Positions 3,508 to 52,542 of a stretch of DNA of 53,974 nt are shown piece by piece. Position 1 is the first letter of the stretch; each line of letters begins with the position of its first letter. The DNA is from a virus. Under the pieces are notes generated by a model. The model ran no database searches and was not told the origin of the DNA. It saw only the letters and a program-made list of their open reading frames with translations. Made by a program: the position numbers and the translations under genes. The stretch spans positions 1-53,974 of IMG/VR virus record IMGVR_UViG_3300044648_000096. One strand, written 5' to 3'.

Positions 3508-3662
3508 GAAAAATATTAGGACACGGAATTATAGCTTTTATTTTCATTTTTATTTTTGTAATGACAGTTATTACTTGTGGGCTAAATGTAGCGGTATTGT
3601 CATTTATAACCACGTTTGTATTAATTGGCTTAATAGGCGTAGCGGTACATTTAATTAACTAA
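3504..3662 (+). CDS. Small hydrophobic membrane protein, 52 aa
   Basis: The ATG at 3504 overlaps the previous stop (ATGA) and the frame runs to TAA at 3660-3662, just before the next ATG. The product is almost entirely hydrophobic: one segment rich in Phe and Ile (GHGIIAFIFIFIFVMTVI) and a second (AVLSFITTFVLIGLIGVAVHL), so two membrane helices are likely. Perfect operon spacing on both sides argues it is a real gene. Early membrane proteins of this size are sometimes superinfection or host-takeover factors, which is speculation here. Confidence 0.65.
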   Translation: MRKILGHGIIAFIFIFIFVMTVITCGLNVAVLSFITTFVLIGLIGVAVHLIN

Positions 3663-3663
3663 T

Positions 3664-4236
3664 ATGGCAAAGCGGATGAGCATAGCTGATCTTGAAAAGA
3701 TGGGATTAGTAGATATGGGTAATGGTGTTTATGCTCCAAAAGGTAGCGTAAAACCTAATACTGTTAAAAGAACGATTCAAAGACGAATAAACGTTCCCGC
3801 CGAACTAGTGGCAAAGCAACCCGTTATAGAAACCCCTAATTTCACCATAAATAGCCCCGTAGAGTCATTTTTAACCATTGATGGGGTTGTGGCAGGGCTA
3901 AATGGAAAAGACGGGTTAATGAGGTCGCATTGGACAAATATCAAAAAGATCAAAGACCTATACTGCGCTATTATTACTCAACACATGAAAGAGGGGAAAG
4001 TTCGCAAACACGGCGGGGAAGTAATTATAAATTACGTTGGCTATAAGTCTTTATTGATGGACTGGGATAACTTTTGCGCCAGCTTTAAACATATTGGCGA
4101 TAGTTTGGAAAAGTGCGGGGTAATACTAAAAGATAACCCCAAGATCGTTCGTAAGTTTCTGCCGGAACAAATCAAGTGTAAGCGTTCAGAACAAAAAGTA
4201 ATTGTAATAATTTCAGATTATGTTCCGTCCACATAA
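3664..4236 (+). CDS. RusA-like Holliday junction resolvase (probable)
   Basis: A 190-residue protein whose C-terminal half follows the RusA pattern. Residues 131-146 (LMDWDNFCASFKHIGD) match the family's D-x-DN...K..D core, followed by a 'L..CGVI.KDN..IV' block corresponding to the usual 'G.i.DDs.V' and a final strand (QKVIVIIS). The canonical DD before the last block is KDN here, so one acidic ligand may be shifted. Residues 1-55 are an extra basic N-terminal arm. RusA enzymes cut four-way junctions during phage recombination or packaging, consistent with the SSB-like and HNH neighbours. It overlaps the next gene by 17 bases. Confidence 0.55.
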   Translation: MAKRMSIADLEKMGLVDMGNGVYAPKGSVKPNTVKRTIQRRINVPAELVAKQPVIETPNFTINSPVESFLTIDGVVAGLNGKDGLMRSHWTNIKKIKDLYCAIITQHMKEGKVRKHGGEVIINYVGYKSLLMDWDNFCASFKHIGDSLEKCGVILKDNPKIVRKFLPEQIKCKRSEQKVIVIISDYVPST

Positions 4237-5979: not shown

Positions 5980-6501
5980 ATGAATCAAGATCAAAAACGC
6001 CAAGAATGGCGAGAAGCAAGACTAAAAGAACTTCAAAATCTGCCAATAGACGAATCATTCTCTATCCCGGCGGGACTTATCATTCCATTTGGAGATAACA
6101 TTCTCTTAAAGGAAGTAATGCAGGGAGAAATCAAATCCAAAAGCGGTATAATCACTAAAGTCCCTGCATCTAAAACAATCGGCGCATCCGTTGGATTAGT
6201 AATGGGCATTGGTGAGGAAGTTACAATCCCTGTACATTTAGGAATGAAAGTGTATTACGAACCAACTACAATGCTTAGGGTTTATCACAACGGGGATGAG
6301 TATATCCAAATGTCACAGCACTTGATTTTTGGAGCCGTACCACCTGAGACTTACCTAGAAGCTTATGTACCAGATTCTATCGCGCTTCGCCGGGAATCAA
6401 GACAAACCAATATGGCTAAGGTAGACGCTCAAGAAGAAGAAATCTTAAAAGAGTCGATTGAAACCAACACTCCTGTTGAAATAATAAAAAACAGACAATA
6501 G
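5980..6501 (+). CDS. GroES-like co-chaperonin
   Basis: A 173-residue protein. Residues about 34-120 resemble GroES: 'IIPFGDNILLKEV' matches the first strand of the fold, 'SKSGIITKVPASKTIGASVG' has the position and composition of the mobile loop that docks on GroEL, and 'GLVMGIGEEV...VHLGMKVYYEP' matches the later strands. Extra N-terminal (about 30) and acidic C-terminal (about 45) extensions distinguish it from the 95-residue bacterial protein. Phage co-chaperonins such as T4 Gp31 replace GroES so that the host chaperonin can fold the capsid protein. No groEL is in the window. Confidence 0.7.
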   Translation: MNQDQKRQEWREARLKELQNLPIDESFSIPAGLIIPFGDNILLKEVMQGEIKSKSGIITKVPASKTIGASVGLVMGIGEEVTIPVHLGMKVYYEPTTMLRVYHNGDEYIQMSQHLIFGAVPPETYLEAYVPDSIALRRESRQTNMAKVDAQEEEILKESIETNTPVEIIKNRQ

Positions 6502-6503
6502 TT

Positions 6504-6532
6504 TGTAACCTTTTATCAAAACATTCGTTTAA
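6504..6532 (+). promoter_or_regulatory. ECF-sigma-type promoter of the lipoprotein gene
   Basis: TGTAAC (6504-6509), a 16-base spacer, then CGTTTAA (6526-6532), 24 bases before the ATG at 6557. A 20-base string containing the -35 and most of the spacer recurs exactly upstream of the CAP-domain gene on the other strand near 24.38 kb. The form fits what I recall of Bacteroidota ECF promoters, so a host envelope-stress-type sigma factor may drive this gene independently of phage promoters. Confidence 0.6.
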
Positions 6533-6556
6533 GTAAGTAGCAAAAACAAAACTTAA

Positions 6557-6958
6557 ATGAAAAAGATAATTGTAATTACATCCGTAATGTTTAGTTGTAA
6601 TAAGGATAAAAAAGTTATTTATTCCCCGCCGATTAGGGATAAAATGCCTTACGGAAAGGTTAGCGTTTGGTCGCCTTTCGGCGGGGACACAACACTTAAA
6701 TCCGATCTTACACTTACTCACTATTACACCGAAAAGAAAGATTCCTGTAATCTTTATTATTACGAATTAAGCTACCCTATTTGGAGTGAATACGACTATA
6801 ATCATTGCGTTAATGAATGTGGTTATAATAAGGACACGCTGGTTATTAAAGACTTTAATTCTAATAAAAAAGCTATTTTTATAAGGAACTGGAACCACGA
6901 AAGACTCATAAGCGACATTGCTTCTAATGCAAAATTAACAAAGGCGGATGGAGGATAA
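6557..6958 (+). CDS. Putative lipoprotein, 133 aa (probable moron)
   Basis: The N-terminus MKKIIVITSVMFSCNKDKK is a short lipoprotein-type leader with Cys at position 14, though the hydrophobic part is short and the lipobox (MFSC) is not canonical. The mature part is tyrosine- and tryptophan-rich with four further Cys residues and no family I know. The gene has its own ECF-type promoter and breaks the dense operon. Its stop codon lies in a TAACG string like those that open the fold-back repeats downstream. I infer a host-modifying surface protein expressed in the lysogen or under stress. Confidence 0.6.
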   Translation: MKKIIVITSVMFSCNKDKKVIYSPPIRDKMPYGKVSVWSPFGGDTTLKSDLTLTHYYTEKKDSCNLYYYELSYPIWSEYDYNHCVNECGYNKDTLVIKDFNSNKKAIFIRNWNHERLISDIASNAKLTKADGG

Positions 6959-8024: not shown

Positions 8025-8078
8025 CATATATTATATCTAGCAATAAACAAAACACGCTAATTATAAGTTAATTAAATT

Positions 8079-8951
8079 ATGAATATTCCGAAGTATATAG
8101 AAAGGTATCGGAAAGACTTAGAGTTTTTAAGATACCGCCAAAACTCAGTAGAATCATACGTTTCTTGCGTAACGGTATTTCTTAACCATTTTATTAACAA
8201 AAAAGATCACGAACACATAAACGAATCAGAAATAAAAGACTTCTTATATCAATTCAAAGAACACAACACACAAAGAGCATATCACTCTGCTGTAAAGGCT
8301 TTTTATAAATATACTTGTAAGCAACCAAATAAATTCAAATGGATTCAGTATTGTAAACGCAATCGTAAATTACCAATAGTTCTTTCCCCCGCCGAAATGC
8401 AAAGAATTATATTCTCATGCACTAATCTTAAGCACAAAACCATCATTTGCTTAATGTACTCAACAAGCATTAGGGTAAGTGAAGTAATAAGCCTTAAAAT
8501 AGCAGATATAGACCCGGATAGAATGATTATAATGATTCGTGACGCTAAGGGCGGGAAAGATCGGCAAGTGCCGCTAGACCCAATTCTATTAGAATTAATA
8601 CGCGAATATTACAACCAATATTCTCCCGCCGAATATTTATTTAACGGGCAATTTGACTTGAAATATTCTACGCGAAGCATCGCTCAATTTTTACAAAAAT
8701 ACACAGATGCGGCGGGGATAAATAAACGAGTTTATCCACACCTAATCCGCCATTCATCAGCAACACATTTACTAGAAGCTGGACTAGATTTAAGCATTAT
8801 CCAAAAAGTTCTTGGTCACAACTCAATACAAACAACTCAAGGTTACACTCATATAAGCAATACGTTAATAAGCAGAGTTAAAACCCCGCTCAGTTATATT
8901 ACAATTCCTGTAAAAAATCAAATAGAAAGAAATAATTTACAACTTGTGTAA
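8079..8951 (+). CDS. Tyrosine recombinase / integrase
   Basis: A 290-residue protein with a SAM-like core-binding domain (1-90) and a complete catalytic domain. The six active residues are visible: R132 (SIRVSE), K160 (GGKDRQVPL; K157 is the alternative), H221 and R224 (PHLIRHSSATHL), H247 (VLGHNS) and the nucleophile Y256 (GYTH). It is of Xer-like length, with no arm-binding domain. It may integrate the phage, resolve genome multimers, or act on the cassette-like repeats just upstream. It ends 4 bases before the convergent late operon. An in-frame TTACA-N5-TGTAA copy lies at 8899-8913. Confidence 0.9.
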   Translation: MNIPKYIERYRKDLEFLRYRQNSVESYVSCVTVFLNHFINKKDHEHINESEIKDFLYQFKEHNTQRAYHSAVKAFYKYTCKQPNKFKWIQYCKRNRKLPIVLSPAEMQRIIFSCTNLKHKTIICLMYSTSIRVSEVISLKIADIDPDRMIIMIRDAKGGKDRQVPLDPILLELIREYYNQYSPAEYLFNGQFDLKYSTRSIAQFLQKYTDAAGINKRVYPHLIRHSSATHLLEAGLDLSIIQKVLGHNSIQTTQGYTHISNTLISRVKTPLSYITIPVKNQIERNNLQLV

Positions 8952-40964: not shown

Positions 40965-42446
40965 TTACGCTGCCTTGTAAAGGATACCGCAAAGTGTCGG
41001 GTTGTATACGCAAAGCATATCTTCCTTCAACATTGCTACCTTATCAGCATCAACTTCTGACTGAACTAATCCTTTAGAACCAGTTAAACCAATATAAGAT
41101 GCCTCTACGCTTGAACGGTTAACACCGTTAGCTTCTTTACAAAGGATTTCCATTGTAGGTTGGTCATCAGTGCTGATACCCATTGCGAAGTATGTAGATG
41201 ACATTAAAGAACGTCCATCTGCACCAACTTCTGGGAACAGTTGCTCATCATCAAACATTGGGTCAAGCACGAAATACGCGCTGTTTCCATTGATGTTGAA
41301 CTTAGTGAAGTTGTAACCAACTTCTACCTCAGCACCACCAGCTTGTGAGCTTTGAGTGATGTTCTGAACCATTGTGATGTTCTGATTACCAGAAAGGTTA
41401 ACCATCTTCTGTTGAGCATTCTCATACCCATCAGTTCCAGTTAAGAATACCCATACGATGTTCTGAACTTGGTTAGAACTCTTTTGCATGGTTTTCATCA
41501 AATCAGCAAAGTCATCTTCTGTTGCCTCACCGTTAGTTCCTGAACCAGTCGCTACGTTTGTAGAAGATACTTGTTCTTCCCATCCGTCACCGATCATAAT
41601 TGGAAGCCCGGTTTCAGGGTCGTTACCAAGTTTTGATTCAGTTGCTAAAGAGCCGTCAGAATTCTTCATAGAAGATACTGAGAACTTCTTGTGACGCTCG
41701 TTTTCCATAGCGTACTGTGCGCGAGCTTGCTCTACTGCCCAATACATCCATCCAATTTGCGCTCCGTCTGCATATTCATACCAAAGAATATCCGACTTTG
41801 CACTACCAGTGATGGCAATAGTCTTACGTTGGATAGTCATGTGGTTGATATAAGTATCAGGGTGCTTTGAACGGCTATCTGACCTTAGTGAACCTTCTGA
41901 GTAAGAAGTAAAGAGCGGGAAACAAGTTTTGATTGACCCTACGTGAGTTGCGTAAACAAACGCAGTTCCAGTTACCGACTTGAAGTTATATACATAACCT
42001 GTTGCGCTAGAACCAGAAGCATAACTCATTACACGAGCTTGGTAACCGCTAGAAAAACGAACTACTTGACCCGGATAAAGGTAAGTGTCTTGCATTTTAA
42101 GGCTGAAATCGCCATTTGCGCCTGATGCTCCTACTTGAGAAAGGATTGTGGCTGCTTTTTCGATACGTCCGATTACATCAAAACGATAAGCATTGTTTCC
42201 AATACCTTTTGACTCGTTCATCTTTGGAACCTTAGTATCTACTTTTCCGTTGATTCCATAACGTCCTACCGCGCCGGAGGTTAGGTAAGTCATCATATAA
42301 CGCTTGTTACGGAACTCAAGCATTTTGCGGTAAGCTGGCTTAACCGCTTGATTTGTGATTAAATCATTTTGTGTTGTACAAGTATCTGCGTTGTACGTAC
42401 CCCTTTTAATATTAATTTGACCGGGGTTAGTTGGTGCTACTGACAT
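40965..42446 (-). CDS. Major capsid protein (HK97-type, crAss-like)
   Basis: A 493-residue protein immediately downstream of the scaffold-like gene, flanked by a terminator, with the even Ala/Gly/Ser composition of a capsid protein. The length is close to that of crAss-like capsid proteins. Residues 198-224 (YINHMTIQR..., ending WYE) recur in the 82-aa gene at 52294-52542, which is unusual. Individual HK97 elements (E-loop, A-domain) cannot be placed without structure prediction. The GroES-like protein of this phage probably assists its folding. Confidence 0.8.
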   Translation of the reverse strand: MSVAPTNPGQINIKRGTYNADTCTTQNDLITNQAVKPAYRKMLEFRNKRYMMTYLTSGAVGRYGINGKVDTKVPKMNESKGIGNNAYRFDVIGRIEKAATILSQVGASGANGDFSLKMQDTYLYPGQVVRFSSGYQARVMSYASGSSATGYVYNFKSVTGTAFVYATHVGSIKTCFPLFTSYSEGSLRSDSRSKHPDTYINHMTIQRKTIAITGSAKSDILWYEYADGAQIGWMYWAVEQARAQYAMENERHKKFSVSSMKNSDGSLATESKLGNDPETGLPIMIGDGWEEQVSSTNVATGSGTNGEATEDDFADLMKTMQKSSNQVQNIVWVFLTGTDGYENAQQKMVNLSGNQNITMVQNITQSSQAGGAEVEVGYNFTKFNINGNSAYFVLDPMFDDEQLFPEVGADGRSLMSSTYFAMGISTDDQPTMEILCKEANGVNRSSVEASYIGLTGSKGLVQSEVDADKVAMLKEDMLCVYNPTLCGILYKAA

Positions 42447-43750: not shown

Positions 43751-45961
43751 TTATTCTGAGAGCATATCATTTGACATTTTGTGATTTTGCTCAATAACTT
43801 TGTTCTTTGCTTTATTGTCATCGACTTCCATTTGCACTTTACCTTTCAGCATAATATCATTGGAAGCTTGGTTTTGGCGATCTTCTCTGTCCTCTTGAGC
43901 GATCTGTAAGTTTGTTTGAAGTTGTTGTTGTTGCATTTGCATTTGCGCCTCACGGTCTGCTTGCGCTGACTCCTGAGCTATTTGCTGCACTCTTTGAAGT
44001 GATTCGCGGAAAATATTCTCAGCCTCAACAGTAGTCTCAGCCATTTCAAATCTCAAAGCATCTAAAGCACTTATTTCTTTGGTATTCATTCCAAACTCAA
44101 TATAAGCCCTCATGCGACTTCTTAATTCATTGTACTTGCCACCATCGTTAATATGCACACCATAATCCCTATATCCCAACTCGCGGGTGACTTGCATATA
44201 CTTATACTTCTCACTGCCTAGTATCTGCTCACCCTTGTCAAGTTTGTAAAACGCCCAGCTTACTTTTGTAGCCTCTACAATCTTTGTCATTACATTCTCG
44301 ACAAATAATTGCATCTGATAAAACAACGGTTCTGTCATTGTTCTACTTGCTTTAATCGCATCTTGAGAATTTGTTACAGTGGCGGAAGCGGCTATTTGTC
44401 CTTGTCGATTATCGTTAATCCCGGTAAGTCTATCTAGCGTATTTAAAAGCGTATCAAGTAATGCTAATATTCCTTCAAAGGATTGACTAAAACCAAGATC
44501 GTGTTCTTGCATCATTGATTTTAAATCAAGATTTTTCCCTGAGAAGTTTCCTGATGCTGCTGAGTTTGTAGTAATAAACCCATCATTCACCGCGTCATAC
44601 ATCAATTTCTTTAAAGTGGTGTTCTTTGGCAACGCAGCTAAGTCATACGCTAAAATCTTTCCTTTTGCCCTGTTAAGCTCTTTCATTAATTGGTACATCC
44701 CAATATCAAAAGCGGTATCAAAGTTCTCTATAACCTGCTGTAAAGGGATTCTGATACCGTCTACGGTTCCGAACAAACATCCAACATAAGAACTATCCAA
44801 AATATACGCTGGCGCATCATGGCTTCTCATTTGGAATGGCTTACGCCTCATGTTTACATCAAGCTCAGGCAAGCCACCAATTCGCGTAGCTTCCCATAAA
44901 TCTTCTTCCCACCCGGTTTCAATTTTGAAATGTCCTTTCTCCACACCCTTATCGTATTTAGCCTTGTTTGGCTCATATACATCATAAGGGATTTCATTCA
45001 TAATTTCAGTGGTAGTATCATCATAAGCCAACTGATTTGGGGTCTTTGGCATTATTTTATAATAAGACGGTTTAACTGATTTCCATTCTATATGAAGCAC
45101 AGTACACATTACCCCGCCTCCTTCGCCTTTAGCTAGCATACCCCGGCTTTGGCGTATATATGTTTCAGGATTTTGCTGCACATTGTACAATAAATCCCTT
45201 TGTTCTTTAGTTAATTCATACCTACGCAATACCTCATGGATAGGCATACGCATTCTGCATCCTTTGATCGGACTTTTCTCAATGAAATCATCCCCTTCTA
45301 TTTCTTCGTAAATGAAATCACGCGGGTCAATCTTCATAAAATCAACATCACCCTTTTCATTTATTTCAATCTTAGCAAAACACTTCCCGGTAATCCTTGC
45401 ATCTAAAAAACACTCTCCAAATTTCTTTACAAGTTTTAATGCTTTGATTTGCTCATTGACAATAATCTGCATTATATCTTCTTGCTTGTCCTTTGGACTC
45501 ATCTTTGCCCACAGAGGGTCGTCCTCACTCTCAGGTACGGGCGCACCTTCCATTACGTCTACCCCGGCTATTTCTTTTAATTCCGCTAATTCATCCTTAG
45601 CGATCATTGCTCCCATCATAAAATCCATTGCCGCCATCTTTTCAGATTTAGCCTGAATGTTTACGGTTTCAACAGTAGCGTTTAATGGTCTTGTTAACCA
45701 CTCTCCGCTCAATAAATCTTGTTTGGTTCTCCCCACGCGATAGGCAATGAATTTAGCCCTGTTCTGCACACCGTAAGTAGCTTCTAGCCACTTTATACTA
45801 TCGGGAGATTTAACGCCGTTATATGAGTTATAAAGCCGCGTAGCTTTATTTCTTTCGTTGTCTGCGTTGTTTAATAATGATTCTGCGTAGTCTAAGTGTT
45901 TTTTACACCATTCTGGTGTCTTTTCACTTTGCGGAATATCCTGTCTTGGAAAAATTGACAT
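43751..45961 (-). CDS. Portal protein
   Basis: A 736-residue protein next to TerL and the scaffold, of the size found in crAss-like portals. The core includes IDPRDFIYEE (wing region), HDAPAYILDSSYVGCLFGTVDGIRIPLQQ, and the conserved ILAYDLAALPKN...SAASGNFSGK (436-476). A Gln-rich C-terminal barrel-like helix (AQADREAQMQMQQQQLQTNLQIAQEDRED) matches the crown of other portals. It forms the dodecameric DNA channel. The 436-476 segment is repeated in the separate 73-aa gene at 48974-49195. Confidence 0.8.
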   Translation of the reverse strand: MSIFPRQDIPQSEKTPEWCKKHLDYAESLLNNADNERNKATRLYNSYNGVKSPDSIKWLEATYGVQNRAKFIAYRVGRTKQDLLSGEWLTRPLNATVETVNIQAKSEKMAAMDFMMGAMIAKDELAELKEIAGVDVMEGAPVPESEDDPLWAKMSPKDKQEDIMQIIVNEQIKALKLVKKFGECFLDARITGKCFAKIEINEKGDVDFMKIDPRDFIYEEIEGDDFIEKSPIKGCRMRMPIHEVLRRYELTKEQRDLLYNVQQNPETYIRQSRGMLAKGEGGGVMCTVLHIEWKSVKPSYYKIMPKTPNQLAYDDTTTEIMNEIPYDVYEPNKAKYDKGVEKGHFKIETGWEEDLWEATRIGGLPELDVNMRRKPFQMRSHDAPAYILDSSYVGCLFGTVDGIRIPLQQVIENFDTAFDIGMYQLMKELNRAKGKILAYDLAALPKNTTLKKLMYDAVNDGFITTNSAASGNFSGKNLDLKSMMQEHDLGFSQSFEGILALLDTLLNTLDRLTGINDNRQGQIAASATVTNSQDAIKASRTMTEPLFYQMQLFVENVMTKIVEATKVSWAFYKLDKGEQILGSEKYKYMQVTRELGYRDYGVHINDGGKYNELRSRMRAYIEFGMNTKEISALDALRFEMAETTVEAENIFRESLQRVQQIAQESAQADREAQMQMQQQQLQTNLQIAQEDREDRQNQASNDIMLKGKVQMEVDDNKAKNKVIEQNHKMSNDMLSE

Positions 45962-46022: not shown

Positions 46023-48032
46023 TCACATCCAACGTTTAGGATGGTCATGCTCATCACCCAAGAACGGGTTTAAGTTTTCTAACGGAACAACATTCCCATT
46101 TTTATCCTGTTGCCAAGAGCCTAAATCAAGAATATCAGGGTTATTCCAATCCTCTTTATTGCGCGGCTGGATTTCAAATGAAACATCTTGCATCAGAGCC
46201 ATGCCATAAGCATCAGCAAGGTCATTATCTGAGCCAATATAAGCTATATCGAAGTTTTGTAATTGATTTAATAATTCAGGGAACCATATCTGATTGCAGA
46301 AATAATCCACCGCCGACTGCATTAATCCCAACATCAACGGCTTGCTATAATTATTAAGAGATACACCCCACAAATGGGTTTGCTCAGAATTTTCAGATTC
46401 AAATTTACGTGGGCGGTATGCTAAATACTGCGCCATACCTTTCATTTCAAAGTGCTTTATCACCCCTGCCGATCTTACGTCACAAAGCACAGCTTCATGT
46501 AAATTAAAATGCACAGCTAATTTACAGCACATTTCATAAAACAATTCTTTGCGTTCCGGGCGGCAACAAATAGTGGCAACCGGGGCTAATTGCAATGCGT
46601 TAGGAATAGTGTTTCGTCTTATAATAACACACATACCTCCTTTAGATTTTGAGGTACGCGACAAATCCTGATCGTAACCATCTGTCCCAGAGCAATATAA
46701 GTGGTCGTAACCTTTGATAGGAGCAAGATGGTCTTGGTGTATTAAAAAACAAACACCATCTTCTGTAACGCTATTATCAATTTTAACTTCGGTTTGCGCG
46801 GGGAATAAATACTCTCCTGTTTTTAAGTCTTTTTTCCATTCAATCTGACATCTTACATACTTCTTTGGACTTGACATAATCTTGTCCATTTGGTCATTCA
46901 TTATATCAGTATCAAAAGCATTTACGATGGTCTTTCTGAAAATGTCAGCTTCGGTTAAAGGGTAATCTTTTAAATGCTCTTGGTATTTTTCAGAGTTCTT
47001 ACCCTTCATTATCTCTTTTCTCTCCGCGATAATGGTTTCTTTTGCAGCCTCAGTATCTTCTACCCCAACAGACTCAAAAGTCTTGTATTCCTTCTCTAAA
47101 TTCGGAATTTTTGGGATTTCTAAAGAACATCCACCATAAAACGGTTTATGAAATCTCTCTGCGGTTACTAAGAACTTAATAAAGTTGTTTTCTTCCGCCT
47201 CGTGCCACATTTTTTGAAAATCGCGGCTTCCTTTATTCATGTTACCGCCTGTTCCCCACATCCAAAAATTACCAATTTGAATACTACCGTCCATAATACA
47301 GGGGCGAGTATGGCTATAAAATTTCTCCAAGTGTTCAAACTCCCCGCATTCCTCAGCCATAACATCTACCAACGCCAATCCTTTAAACAATGCGGGAGAT
47401 TGTTTCATTGTACGTACATAAATAGTATTACGCGTTCCCCCTTCAATTAAAGAGCCATCTTCCCCGCGAAACTTGTATCCGGCTATTACCTGATCGTCGT
47501 TGTCCTTTAATTTCTTTACTCGTAGTTCAGGCGGCAACATAGATTCTGATGTGCGCCATTTACGCATAAAATCCTGAGCGTATAAGTCTTGTCCCGCCGC
47601 AACACCACACTGATATGCACCATTACGAAATCTAAAGTCATAATCGACCTTTGCCTTTTGGAACAATTCAGACGCTCCAATACGGCGTTTCTTAGCGCAA
47701 ATGAAATTCTTCTTATTAGCAATGCAATACTCAATCAAATAGATCATTTCAAGGTGTAAATCCACCATGTCGGGCGAGATAATACCCGCCGCCGCCGCCA
47801 TTGAGTTAAAATTGAGGTAATAATAGTAGCGTCCCGGTATAAATAACCCGCCAGTTTGGTATCCGTTGGTGATGTAATATAATTGCTCGTTCCACCAATC
47901 TTCCCATTGTGGAGTGCCGATAACTTTAGGATTTCTTATTGAGTCTGCAAAATCAGGGATTCCGTACTTTACAATAGGATTTGGACAATAGTTTTTGCCC
48001 TTTCTGTATGGTGGGCGGGCAATTATACTCAT
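46023..48032 (-). CDS. terL: Terminase large subunit
   Basis: A 669-residue protein with both TerL domains. ATPase: a Walker A-like CAKKRRIGAS at 112-121 (a deviant P-loop with KRRIGAS) and Walker B ALVDVMAEECGEFE at about 220-232. Nuclease (RNase H-like): acidic residues D451 (CSGTDGYDQD), D518 (VLCDVRSAG) and D604/D607 (GSDNDLADAYGMA). It pumps DNA into the prohead and cuts concatemers. Directly downstream of the probable small subunit with a 4-base overlap. Confidence 0.9.
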   Translation of the reverse strand: MSIIARPPYRKGKNYCPNPIVKYGIPDFADSIRNPKVIGTPQWEDWWNEQLYYITNGYQTGGLFIPGRYYYYLNFNSMAAAAGIISPDMVDLHLEMIYLIEYCIANKKNFICAKKRRIGASELFQKAKVDYDFRFRNGAYQCGVAAGQDLYAQDFMRKWRTSESMLPPELRVKKLKDNDDQVIAGYKFRGEDGSLIEGGTRNTIYVRTMKQSPALFKGLALVDVMAEECGEFEHLEKFYSHTRPCIMDGSIQIGNFWMWGTGGNMNKGSRDFQKMWHEAEENNFIKFLVTAERFHKPFYGGCSLEIPKIPNLEKEYKTFESVGVEDTEAAKETIIAERKEIMKGKNSEKYQEHLKDYPLTEADIFRKTIVNAFDTDIMNDQMDKIMSSPKKYVRCQIEWKKDLKTGEYLFPAQTEVKIDNSVTEDGVCFLIHQDHLAPIKGYDHLYCSGTDGYDQDLSRTSKSKGGMCVIIRRNTIPNALQLAPVATICCRPERKELFYEMCCKLAVHFNLHEAVLCDVRSAGVIKHFEMKGMAQYLAYRPRKFESENSEQTHLWGVSLNNYSKPLMLGLMQSAVDYFCNQIWFPELLNQLQNFDIAYIGSDNDLADAYGMALMQDVSFEIQPRNKEDWNNPDILDLGSWQQDKNGNVVPLENLNPFLGDEHDHPKRWM

Positions 48033-48589
48033 ACTCGTTGCGGTTTTTTATTCCGCACAATTTCGTAATTTTTCTTATTACGCTGTAAAATTTCTATGTA
48101 GCTGTTCTGCTGATCGCCTTTTAGTTGACCTTCCTTCAAAACATCTTCGTAAATCTCATTCTCGATAGCTTTTATGCGGTTATTAAGCATATCAATAGAC
48201 TTTAGACAGTTTTCAAGTGCTTTCCCGTCCAAAGTTGGGATTTCCCCCTGCAACTGCGCGACTTTATTGCGATAGGTTTGCTTTAATTCTTCTTTTTCAT
48301 CGTACTGCAACGACTTGTATGCCTCAATAGCCACCATTATACGGTGACTTTTATCATCATCTTCAATGGCCTTTAGGATTTTTGGGTTGTTGTCCCCAAA
48401 AGCCTCTATCATTGCCCTGCGAATTCGGTCTTGTTGGTTAAAACGACGAAATGGGCTGTGATAATCGTAGGCGGCAGCTATAAAGCATAATTCTTCGTCA
48501 GATATTCCCGACAGTTCAGGGCATAAAGCCACGCAAGCTGGGCGCAAGGCGACTTTGTTTTTTGTATCAAGATATATGACGTAGCTCAT
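48029..48589 (-). CDS. Probable small terminase subunit, 186 aa
   Basis: Position immediately before TerL with a 4-base overlap is the main evidence. The N-terminal half (LRPACVALCPELSGISDEELCFIAAAYDYHSPFRR) is a conserved block I recall from Bacteroidota phages upstream of TerL. The C-terminal half is helical (KALENCLKSIDMLNNRIKAIENEIYEDVLKEG), suitable for ring assembly. No visible HTH, so DNA recognition is unproven. Confidence 0.55.
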   Translation of the reverse strand: MSYVIYLDTKNKVALRPACVALCPELSGISDEELCFIAAAYDYHSPFRRFNQQDRIRRAMIEAFGDNNPKILKAIEDDDKSHRIMVAIEAYKSLQYDEKEELKQTYRNKVAQLQGEIPTLDGKALENCLKSIDMLNNRIKAIENEIYEDVLKEGQLKGDQQNSYIEILQRNKKNYEIVRNKKPQRV

Positions 48590-48933
48590 TAGTTGCTGTT
48601 TGGATTAAGCGATAACAATTCATCGCCGCTATCGAATTCCTCAACTAAAATTCCGTCAACTTCTTCCCCCCATCCGCGTTGTTCGGCTATATCTCTAGCC
48701 TCATTCCAATCGCCTGATTTTGAAACAATGATAGTTCCGCAATATGGGCGCGGTTCAAATTCGTTGTAAGGGCAATCGGCGGGAGCTTCCCCCATAACTT
48801 CGGTTGCTTTTTTGGCATCGAATACAGCTCTAGTTGTAAAAACTCGCTCATCGACTAACAAAACCTTCTTAAAGTTTTCGTCTTTAACCTCATCAAAAGC
48901 TCGGAAGTGTTTATTTACGTTTTTAGGTATCAT
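48589..48933 (-). CDS. Hypothetical protein, 114 aa
   Basis: Acidic, with scattered Cys and the stretch GTIIVSKSGDWNEARDIAEQRGWGEEVDGILVEEFDSGDE. Unrecognised. It abuts the small-terminase-like gene (one-base overlap). A variant palindrome lies just upstream of the ATG. Confidence 0.6.
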   Translation of the reverse strand: MIPKNVNKHFRAFDEVKDENFKKVLLVDERVFTTRAVFDAKKATEVMGEAPADCPYNEFEPRPYCGTIIVSKSGDWNEARDIAEQRGWGEEVDGILVEEFDSGDELLSLNPNSN

Positions 48934-48935
48934 TT

Positions 48936-48988
48936 TTACGGATTTTGTAATTTTTATTTCGGCGGGAGATTATTTACTGATTTTGTAA
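48936..48988. promoter_or_regulatory. Two variant palindromes around a GGCGGGA word
   Basis: 48936-48950 (TTACG-GATTT-TGTAA) and 48974-48988 (TTACT-GATTT-TGTAA), each one base off consensus, separated by GGCGGGA (48961-48967). The second overlaps the stop codon of the portal-fragment gene. They would control the 48933 gene and the terminase genes below. Confidence 0.5.
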
Positions 48989-49195
48989 AGAGGTGTCAAT
49001 GAATTTTACATCCGTCCCGTCAGGATTGAAAATTTTAACTGGATTTTCTACGTCTTTTCCAGAATAATTTCCACTTGCTTTTGAGCAATACACAATTACG
49101 CCCTCTTTTTTGTATTTCTCTATAATGTCATTCATTTTAGCGTTTTTGGGCAAGGCGGCTAAATCATAAGCTAGTATTTGTTTTTCTTCACTCAT
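48974..49195 (-). CDS. Stand-alone portal-segment protein, 73 aa
   Basis: Residues 6-17 are ILAYDLAALPKN, identical to portal residues 436-447, and residues 39-47 (ASGNYSGKD) align with portal ASGNFSGKN at the same relative spacing. Overall about 22 of 45 aligned residues agree, so the copy is old and under selection rather than a fresh duplication. The remainder is a new N-terminal MSEEKQ and a C-terminal tail (VKIFNPDGTDVKFIDTSLQNQ). It overlaps the PD-(D/E)XK gene by 4 bases. Function unknown: an assembly modulator or a decoy for a portal sensor are candidate ideas. Confidence 0.7.
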   Translation of the reverse strand: MSEEKQILAYDLAALPKNAKMNDIIEKYKKEGVIVYCSKASGNYSGKDVENPVKIFNPDGTDVKFIDTSLQNQ

Positions 49196-49947
49196 ATCAA
49201 AATGCTTTTTTGTAATAATTTCTCTTTTATCTTATCCTTGTTCAGCTCCAATAATGCCATGACATCGTGCTTTAAGTAAGGTACGTGTATTTTCTTGTGA
49301 TTCACTTTTCCCACGCGACAGGTCGATGGTTGTATCAAATGTATGAAAAGTTCTTTAATCTTTTTCCCGGTCAATTTCTCAGCGTGATACCCATAATAAC
49401 TTAACTGGAACGCTGTTTTCATAAACTTACTATTGGGTAAGTGATCGAAAGGAGCAAATAACCAACCTCTGCCTTTATACAAATCATCTTCCATGTTCTC
49501 ATAACATTTGGTGTCCGATAAAACAATTTGGCTGTCTTTGCGGTTAGTTGTTAGGCAAAGGGTGTCGGTTGTCCCGGCGGTTCTGAATTCTTCGCAATAA
49601 AGTATAGTTTGTGGGAATTTCTTAGCATACGCTCCGTACATCACCGACAGTTCTAACACCGCTAGCTGTATATCATTGAACTCGGCGGGGATTTCATCAT
49701 GCTTCAAGTAATGAGTTAAAGCGGCATCAACTCTTACCCCCTCCGATCTTTGTTCGTCCCATTTGGCTAATGTTTTTTCCATACCCTCTTGGTTTTTACC
49801 GCCAGTAAAGTATGCTATCTTATTAGCGTCAAATCTAGGGGCTAAGAATTCATAGCACTCGCTAAAAGACATATAGTAATTCCCCGCCGAATCGGTGTAT
49901 TCATGCGTTTCTTCATTAAGATTTACCTTTGCGGGGAATAAGCTCAT
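49192..49947 (-). CDS. PD-(D/E)XK nuclease
   Basis: A 251-residue protein with the RecB/Cas4-type arrangement: E119/E120, GTTD (D128), a strand with D145-T-K147 (IVLSDTKCY) and QLSYYGY (Q181-x2-Y184). These fit the acid, D, D-x-K and Q-x2-Y positions of exonucleases that process duplex ends. It is coupled by 4-base overlaps to the exoribonuclease-like gene upstream and the portal-segment gene downstream. Likely recombination or host-DNA degradation. Confidence 0.7.
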   Translation of the reverse strand: MSLFPAKVNLNEETHEYTDSAGNYYMSFSECYEFLAPRFDANKIAYFTGGKNQEGMEKTLAKWDEQRSEGVRVDAALTHYLKHDEIPAEFNDIQLAVLELSVMYGAYAKKFPQTILYCEEFRTAGTTDTLCLTTNRKDSQIVLSDTKCYENMEDDLYKGRGWLFAPFDHLPNSKFMKTAFQLSYYGYHAEKLTGKKIKELFIHLIQPSTCRVGKVNHKKIHVPYLKHDVMALLELNKDKIKEKLLQKSILI

Positions 49948-50594: not shown

Positions 50595-51272
50595 TTATGC
50601 TGTTTTAGCGTTTAATTCTATTACAGGGGTTGTTTCTTCGTCGATAACAAAGTTCTCGTCGGGGTTAACGGTAATATATCCTTTGCCTTGTAAAAACTCC
50701 TGACAAAACGCCTTTTGTTCTTCCTCGCTCATGTTCTTGAAGTCATTCAAATCTTCCTCTCCTTTTTTACCCTTCCTTATAAGATTCTCCACATACCTCA
50801 GTCCCATTTCCTCAACCGATACTGGCCTATTCCCAGCCGCGTACTCCCTTACTTCCTCCAAAATCTCGCCAAAAATTTTCTTAACCTCAGCAAATTCAGG
50901 GTACTTATCTTCTTCCTCTAATACGGCGGTTTTCAACTTAATCGTTTTCCCCGTTTCCTGATTCACCAGCTTTGTCCCGGTAATTACAAAGGCATTGTTA
51001 CCTTTTAATTCCACATCGGTAATCGTAGTGTCATTCACCGCGAACTCAAATTCCATTTCATCGCGCGGGTTTTGACAAACTTCGCAGAGATTCAACAAAT
51101 GTGATCGCAATTCTTTAAACTTTTTCTCTAATCCCAAATGGATAGGATACTTCGGTTCGTGTTTGGCGGGAGTCATATAACTAAACCCGTCCTTAAATTC
51201 TTCTACTTTCCCTTTTAATTTTAAACCGCTAATTCCGTTTTCAACTAGCGTAACCCGTTCTATTATGTTCAT
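50595..51272 (-). CDS. Hypothetical protein, 225 aa
   Basis: A family I associate with Bacteroidota phages but cannot name. The first 135 residues are beta-rich (VTLVENGISGLKLKGKVEE..., FVITGTKLVN); the rest is helical and acidic (NDFKNMSEEEQKAFCQEFLQG). Two Cys (CEVCQ) near residue 65. It abuts the exonuclease gene and overlaps the GIY-YIG gene by 4 bases. Function unknown. Confidence 0.65.
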   Translation of the reverse strand: MNIIERVTLVENGISGLKLKGKVEEFKDGFSYMTPAKHEPKYPIHLGLEKKFKELRSHLLNLCEVCQNPRDEMEFEFAVNDTTITDVELKGNNAFVITGTKLVNQETGKTIKLKTAVLEEEDKYPEFAEVKKIFGEILEEVREYAAGNRPVSVEEMGLRYVENLIRKGKKGEEDLNDFKNMSEEEQKAFCQEFLQGKGYITVNPDENFVIDEETTPVIELNAKTA

Positions 51273-52162
51273 ATTTCTATTTTTAATTGATTTTTTCTTT
51301 TGTTTTCATAAAACTTTAACATTGATTGTCTCATTTTTTCAAGGGTTTCTTTACTTCTTGGCGGCCTTTTACTTTGAAATTCACTCATTTTTTTTCTAGC
51401 CTCAACAGATGCTTTCCTACCTTTTAGTTTAGCTTTAGTTTCATCAGAAAGCTTTTTGCCTAATTTTGCTTCTCTTATTTTCTGCTTAGTCTCGATAGAA
51501 TGTTTCTTGCCATAAAAAGGATTTCGCTCTCCATTTATGTTATCGCAAAACTTTAACCGATGCTCTTTAGATAATTTTTTTCCCTTCTTTTTTTCACTAA
51601 GAAGTTTTTTAGTTTCTTCATTGTGCTTTTTTCCAAAAAAAGGATTGCTCTCTCCAAATTTCCTAACACCATTAAAATTAGAATTTTTTCTCATTTTTTC
51701 TATGGTTTCAGGTTTATGTTTTTTACCAACCCACCATTTAGATATTTTTTCTGCGTGTTCTGGCGATAATTTTTTTCCTTTTCTAGCTGCGCTAATTTTC
51801 TTTTTAGCTTCTTCTGATAACGGAATACCCATCCTAGAGTCAGCCTTTTTAAGAACATTATATTCTGGACATAAAGAATCAAGATAAAACTGCTCCCTTG
51901 AAATAATAAACTCTTTTTTTATTTCTTCTATAATTTCTAAAACCTCAAACGAAAAAGAAGATTCTCCATACTTATTAAAATCATTTTGGAGTTTGAAGCT
52001 GTGATGTTTTCCTTTTCTCAACGTAATCAAATGAGAATTTTTTCTAATTCTCATGTTTAATGTAGAACCAATATATATCTTTCCGTTTATAACATTTGTT
52101 ATACTATAAATACAACAAAAATCTGTTTTGCTGTGATCTTCTATTTTATTCCAAAATGCCAT
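51269..52162 (-). CDS. GIY-YIG endonuclease with NUMOD3 repeats
   Basis: Residues 14-100 are a GIY-YIG domain (CCIYSITNVINGKIYIGST, R38 in the helix, later SREQFYLD with the catalytic-Glu region). Residues 110-285 contain repeated DNA-binding NUMOD3 units (SEEAKKKISAARKGKK; NPFFGKKHNEETKKLL; NPFYGKKHSIETKQKI; SDETKAKLKGRK). This is the classic free-standing homing endonuclease of phage genomes. It lies directly downstream of the capsid-segment gene, so its homing target could be nearby. Confidence 0.9.
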   Translation of the reverse strand: MAFWNKIEDHSKTDFCCIYSITNVINGKIYIGSTLNMRIRKNSHLITLRKGKHHSFKLQNDFNKYGESSFSFEVLEIIEEIKKEFIISREQFYLDSLCPEYNVLKKADSRMGIPLSEEAKKKISAARKGKKLSPEHAEKISKWWVGKKHKPETIEKMRKNSNFNGVRKFGESNPFFGKKHNEETKKLLSEKKKGKKLSKEHRLKFCDNINGERNPFYGKKHSIETKQKIREAKLGKKLSDETKAKLKGRKASVEARKKMSEFQSKRPPRSKETLEKMRQSMLKFYENKRKNQLKIEI

Positions 52163-52293: not shown

Positions 52294-52542
52294 TCATCTT
52301 GCATATTCATCCAATTTTTTAAAATATCCACAAACTGCATCACCCTCATACCAAATAACATTAGTCTTTGCTCTCCCAGTTACACTAATCGTTCTTCTTT
52401 GAATGGTCATGTGGTTCATGTATTTCGGCGGGGAAATAGACTTCTTCTCTACAAAGTCCGTCACAGCCAAAACCTTATCCGCCGGGATTAAACCGCTCCC
52501 AACCAAAAAACCCAACGATCTTAAAAATCCCCTTCTTTCCAT
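52294..52542 (-). CDS. Capsid-segment protein with twin-arginine-like leader, 82 aa
   Basis: The N-terminus MERRGFLRSLGFLVGSG... fits a Tat signal: RRxFL followed by a hydrophobic stretch and KVLA. Residues 41-66 (YMNHMTIQRRTISVTGR..., ending WYE) align with major capsid protein residues 199-224, with 17 of 27 positions identical over the extended block. The last 16 residues are unrelated to the capsid. The message begins inside a TTACA-N5-TGTAA palindrome. It may be exported or only membrane-attached. I know of no described function for such a fusion. Confidence 0.65.
   Translation of the reverse strand: MERRGFLRSLGFLVGSGLIPADKVLAVTDFVEKKSISPPKYMNHMTIQRRTISVTGRAKTNVIWYEGDAVCGYFKKLDEYAR

Follow-up and report, generated by a model that had tools for sequence, protein, structure and literature searches.

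Why would a phage carry a piece of a portal protein as a separate gene? The question is raised by a 73-amino-acid (aa) protein, here called the mini-portal or mini, encoded in a 53,974-nucleotide viral sequence (IMG/VR record IMGVR_UViG_3300044648_000096, positions 1 to 53,974; hereafter the window, meaning this whole stretch). The initial annotation had described a small gene copying a conserved segment of the window's own portal, with its own start, its own stop and a tight operon overlap. The open reading frame (ORF) proved to be as described, with its own ATG and stop codon and a start that overlaps the stop of the upstream exonuclease-like gene by 4 bp (ATGA; Table 1). By the topology of the predicted portal, the mini is a detached clip domain, and intact homologues occur in several relatives of the window phage.

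The portal segment copied by the mini

An all-against-all comparison of the window ORFs gave only two partial self-matches, the mini-portal and a capsid-like mini-gene described below. Residues 6–50 of the mini aligned without gaps to portal residues 435–479, with 22 of 45 residues identical (48.9%), as had been estimated at first reading. The match includes ILAYDLAALPKN, a run of 12 consecutive identical residues (portal residues 436–447), and the motif ASGN(Y/F)SGK, common to both proteins. The BLOSUM62 local score was 107, compared with a mean of 33 (standard deviation 4.9) and a maximum of 62 in 2000 shuffles; BLAST against the window portal gave E values of ~1e-8 to 1e-10, and a profile-profile comparison of mini and portal clip (hhalign) gave a probability of 98.1% (E 8.6e-14). 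The shuffles, together with the reciprocal profile searches reported below, rule out chance similarity. At the DNA level, codons differed at 13 of the 22 identical residues, with 14.4 expected for independent draws from the codon usage of the phage. Synonymous codons are thus fully randomised and the similarity lies at the protein level, which rules out a recent tandem or DNA-level copy of the window portal. The earlier remark that the copy is not a recent tandem one therefore stands, and the distance of 4 kb given for the portal gene is true of the copied part (44.5–44.7 kb). To judge from the sequences, either the mini and the portal separated long ago, or the mini came from the portal of another phage.

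The window mini gave no family match in PHROGs or Pfam (best E 0.057) and none among PDB sequences (best E 0.06). Its homologues were likewise without a match in PHROGs, and the one in L143 also in NCBIfam and Pfam. With Pfam, PHROGs, PDB and the phage collection all lacking a match, the segment is not a generic fold of many unrelated proteins.

The window portal was modelled with AlphaFold2 (AF2) from a 35-sequence alignment, giving a mean predicted local distance difference test (pLDDT) of 78.8, and Foldseek grouped the model with the portals of phicrAss001 and other phages. The model runs from a helix (407–431) through a strand (435–439), a helix (450–460) and a strand (484–488) to a second long helix (493–513), which is followed by a loop (514–528) and a 44-residue helix (529–572). 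In known portals, the clip consists of strands and helix α4 between stem helices α3 and α5, after which come the tunnel loop and a long helix (PMC8703570; T7, PMC6702177). The mini spans the part between the helices, from portal residue 434 to at least 479 and possibly ~490. The modelled topology therefore shows the mini to be a detached portal clip domain (strand, α4, strand) that ends before stem helix α5; local pLDDT in the clip region of the model is 50–62, and the assignment comes from topology and not from an experimental structure. The copied portal segment of the initial annotation is thus real, and by topology it is more than a conserved segment, namely a complete structural domain and the docking site of terminase and tail. 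The mini consists of the clip only, the wing, stem and crown of a complete portal being absent. Compared with the portal clips of Caudoviricetes (phicrAss001 gp20, 7qog; phi29, GA1, T7), it is homologous to the clip of its crAss-like clade, a strand-helix-strand unit between stem helices, but it forms an optional gene of 70–80 aa with an apparently extra C-terminal strand.

A family of detached clips in a variable slot

The window portal matched phicrAss001 gp20 (phmmer, 7e-17) and the window capsid gene matched the Pfam Crassvirus capsid. The portals of the closest named phages were only ~23% identical to that of the window, and at E 1e-20 the window TerL matched no named phage; the window falls in an uncultured, deep-lying crAss-like branch. 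Scans with portal, TerL and TerS-like genes gathered related IMG/VR contigs (labelled L001 etc.). A scan of bacterial genomes with the TerL profile found no relatives and a direct search of viral contigs with the mini alone found none, the homologues coming from the terminase and terminase-neighbour scans.

A profile made solely from the clip stretch of portals was used to search non-portal ORFs. It found the window mini (E 4.7e-12), L143 8524–8742 (1.6e-7), L117 8795–9040 (4.7e-8), L002/L003 3093–3503 (1.5e-5; L002 and L003 are the same phage), L116 4121–4345 (6.6e-5) and a second L117 mini at 3538–4005 (4.9e-4). In total, six proteins were found in five phages of the crAss-like clade, the window and four more. 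In the reverse search, a profile of two minis recovered portals in all 10 of the relatives first searched and in most portal-holding members of a second set (16). The window, L117 and L116 minis scored 112–141 with one another, above any mini-portal score (at most 107), and most minis have in common a C-terminal strand with the pattern (I/V)K(F/I)(I/V)D, which may correspond to the third clip strand of the portal. The L002 mini is individually weak (57–66 against shuffle maxima of 53–60); it was placed in the family because of its profile match and its similarity to the L143 mini (a supported pair, 95/97).

All six minis are open frames and none is broken. These results show that the mini is an old accessory gene of the crAss-like clade, conserved at the protein level. 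They also bear on the idea that it is a non-functional remnant of a duplicated or recombined portal gene, which its small size, variability and absence from most relatives would suit. Such a remnant is very improbable, however, given intact frames in six proteins of five phages with the same domain borders in every case, half of the residues retained despite randomised synonymous codons, a C-terminal strand common to most members, and horizontal gain with clean borders. For all minis as one clade, the approximately unbiased test (p-AU) gave 0.50, and 0.33 without L117Pb; with 46 columns, the tree allows no choice between a single capture of the clip and repeated ones, and the resemblance of L117Pb to clade-II portals hints that the clip was captured a second time. 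When 70 more distant crAss-like portal loci were screened for self-similarity, only two matches were returned, both ORFs on the strand opposite the matched gene. The L022 match was inspected and dismissed.

The L002/L003 protein joins the clip module to a further domain, whose counterpart in the window is encoded on its own by a 68-aa gene (Table 1). By eye, this domain and the 68-aa protein resemble ribbon-helix-helix proteins, and the fusion would fit a regulator in which the clip is the sensing part of a DNA-binding protein that reads the portal or packaging state. Family searches give a DNA-binding fold no support, however, and the fusion is confined to one lineage, leaving a regulator the least probable of the readings weighed here.

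The usual site of the minis is a variable slot that adjoins the packaging genes, where they are encoded on the strand of terminase and portal, and two comparisons showed how they are carried. L143 (from a 76-kb contig) is 96–99.5% identical to L140, L141 and L144 in the flanks of the mini site, where it has a precise insertion of 710 bp (8035–8744) comprising exactly two genes, a 152-aa gene and the mini, with 27% G+C compared with 32% for the locus; L140 has the joined empty site. Between L116 and L124 (flanks 78–82% identical), a clean replacement lies between the exonuclease stop and the TerS-like start, the slot holding the mini in L116 and a 108-aa gene (phrog_10666, unknown) in L124. These filled and empty sites and the cassette swap show that the mini is dispensable and exchangeable in these relatives. 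As the window mini shares the slot, it is presumably an accessory gene as well. In ~30 further distinct relatives the slot was empty or held HNH endonucleases or other small genes, making it an accessory-gene hotspot beside the packaging genes; HNH-type genes were recognised by eye at L125 8490–8999, L127 1152–1703, L128 8472–8999 and L161 8204–8743. A small cassette that is cleanly gained or lost where conserved genes adjoin is also the pattern of phage moron genes, but here the cassette carries part of a virion protein of the phage's own type.

The fit of the minis to the portals of their carriers was uneven. The window mini scored best with its own portal (107), the L113 portal being close at 103, whereas the L116, L117 and L002 minis scored 31, 48 and 39 with their own portals and 69, 79 and 57 with foreign ones. 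The L143 mini scored 95 with the L130 portal and 86 with its own, and the second L117 mini scored 72–76 with clade-II portals (L106, L109, L112, L116) and 57 with its own. These scores suggest that the minis are not consistently tuned to the carrier portal. A free clip that caps or guides ring formation of the carrier's portal would suit the window, whose mini has its best fit with the window portal and has 12 consecutive residues in common with that portal. Nevertheless, the mini is absent from near-identical phages with the same portal, and the L116, L117 and L002 minis match their own portals poorly; accessory carriage and poor fit together argue against an essential role in assembly, and we regard such a helper as improbable.

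The same scores bear on a docking competitor. By analogy with known portals, a free clip could bind the terminase or the tail-barrel adaptor and block docking of the motor or tail, mainly of co-infecting relatives, or could tune the phage's own packaging. Terminase and tail dock on the clip (PMC12847820, PMC6702177), the mini gene adjoins the packaging genes, and several minis are closer to the portals of other lineages than to that of the carrier. In addition, the strands of adjacent clips pair with one another in phi29-like portals (PMC8703570), and the strands are better conserved than helix α4. Docking on TerL or on the portal ring, as suggested at first reading, would also be compatible with clip anatomy. 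However, self-interference would be expected where the mini resembles the carrier's portal, as in the window, and the place beside the terminase may come simply from the slot being a tolerant one, with HNH endonucleases and unrelated genes found there too. A docking competitor is, beside the decoy discussed below, one of the two main readings, though less likely than not.

Detached capsid pieces and neighbouring genes

A screen of 61 long-gene profiles against all small ORFs of ~80 loci found detached pieces of the portal (clip) and the capsid only. The screen matched two other ORFs, in L124 and L109, which seem to be N-terminal parts of portal and TerL genes that are truncated but in their usual place. 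The capsid piece of the window is an 82-aa protein that copies residues 190–224 of the major capsid protein (MCP; Table 1). From its position, the copied stretch is probably the strand returning from the E-loop insertion, which comprises residues 79–180 in the phicrAss001 capsid. The capsid minis of the window and L001 begin with M(E/N)RRGF(L/I), a start like that of twin-arginine translocation (Tat) signals, for which Pfam support is weak (E 0.27 on the L001 homologue). In both phages a GIY-YIG endonuclease gene follows the capsid mini (window 51269–52162; L001 3356–4228).

In L145, a 109-aa protein (1262–1591) has a C-terminal 22-aa stretch 68% identical to residues 308–329 of the phage's own MCP (GPATEDDFLEAMKLLTKRNESN), with 47 of 66 bases the same, and L125 encodes a related 110-aa protein (6360–6692) with a weaker version of this capsid-like end. 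L117 3911–4423 has the same Tat-like N-terminus as the capsid minis with other cargo, and overlaps the second L117 clip mimic (3685–4005); it was rejected as a further capsid mimic because only the N-terminus matches and the remainder is not significant. Apart from these, the TerL ORF of L002 (6775–9927, 1050 aa) is interrupted, after roughly residue 260 of TerL, by an insertion of ~400 aa that may be an intein.

The features of the window are listed in Table 1. For the TerS-like gene, the family search gave no match that would prove a TerS.

Table 1. Features of the window that bear on the mini-portal and the detached capsid piece
Feature	Position	Strand	Basis
MCP gene stretch copied by the 82-aa protein (MCP residues 190–224)	41775–41879	−	
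Portal protein gene, 736 aa	43751–45961	−	PHROG portal 3.4e-51; Foldseek phicrAss001 portal 7.6e-28
Copied clip region of the portal gene (portal residues 434–490)	44492–44662	−	AF2 topology, between helices 407–431 and 493–513
Terminase large subunit (TerL)	46023–48032	−	PHROG terminase 2.9e-59
TerS-like gene, right slot border	48029–48589	−	Label from position before TerL only; conserved in all relatives
114-aa gene sharing the slot with the mini	48589–48933	−	No homologue found
Stand-alone clip-domain gene (mini-portal), 73 aa	48974–49195	−	Match to portal 435–479; portal-clip profile E 4.7e-12
Exonuclease-like gene, left slot border	49192–49947	−	PHROG exonuclease 1.7e-9; conserved in relatives
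82-aa protein with Tat-like start, copy of MCP residues 190–224	52294–52542	−	54% over 35 aa, E ~1e-11 to 1e-12; homologue L001 3084–3359
68-aa gene, counterpart of the N-terminal domain of the L002 clip fusion (L002 3093–3300)	52780–52986	−	48% identity by alignment; tblastn 46% over 50 aa, 1e-9

A possible decoy for sensors of the portal

The portal is a known immune trigger, and its clip is read by host proteins (PMC12847820). The TIR defence protein SpbK clusters on a platform formed by the clip of YonE, the SPbeta portal, and the YonE clip mutation A291P gives the phage partial escape from SpbK; the STAND protein Avs4 contacts the stem, clip and wing of a portal monomer (PMC12847820). By analogy with these two putative targets, we tentatively favour, at somewhat short of an even chance, a mini that acts as a decoy occupying host sensors of the portal clip. 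A free clip has no stem by which to join the dodecamer, yet would present the surface bound by clip-reading proteins. As a monovalent ligand it would occupy SpbK-like TIR proteins but not trigger them, their clustering requiring clips in a ring, and it would occupy Avs4-like STAND proteins without the stem and wing contacts, again with no triggering. From its place in the packaging operon, the mini is probably expressed alongside the portal, so that the decoy would be made when the portal appears.

The decoy is favoured because what the mini copies is, by topology, the clip, on which SpbK is recruited and which Avs4 contacts; because filled, empty and swapped slots are expected of an optional, host-specific gene; because the lack of consistent tuning to the carrier portal suits a decoy of broad sensors; and because the only virion proteins with detached pieces, portal and capsid, are both known immune triggers, the capsid through Thoeris ThsB with the phi80alpha capsid (as cited in PMC12847820). 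A known phage protein that counters a sensor of a structural protein is DSAD1, which acts against DSR2 (PMC11087589). The portal-sensor idea of the initial annotation has thereby become narrower, the copied part being the clip and the gene behaving as an optional accessory; that the mini titrates a sensor is what we infer from the analogy.

Several points weigh against such a decoy. The mini presumably folds as a clip, but its own model was poor (pLDDT 58, predicted template modelling score 0.40), and a structure search with this low-confidence model gave no match. The modelled contact of SpbK is with helix α4, and in the minis no element is less conserved than this helix, which is also more charged (47% vs 25%). 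SpbK is a Bacillus protein, and the work on Avs4 was done in E. coli. Finally, a free clip might trigger a sensor rather than block it.

If the mini is such a decoy, the detached capsid piece of the same phage may likewise blind a capsid sensor. The clade might then build a set of decoys from pieces of its own virion (the portal clip, the capsid E-loop strand and perhaps a second capsid helix), each encoded by an interchangeable accessory gene and aimed at host sensors of conserved structural proteins; this broader proposal is a more doubtful one.

We found no report of a stand-alone clip gene in the open-access literature. Bacterial immunity is repeatedly triggered by portal and major capsid proteins, and the gene described here is the exposed docking domain of a portal, gained and lost as a cassette. 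If the readings above are true, it would either be an immune decoy derived from the phage itself or block packaging in a dominant-negative way, and a clip fragment of this kind would be a useful tool to dissect SpbK, Avs4 and the docking of the packaging motor.
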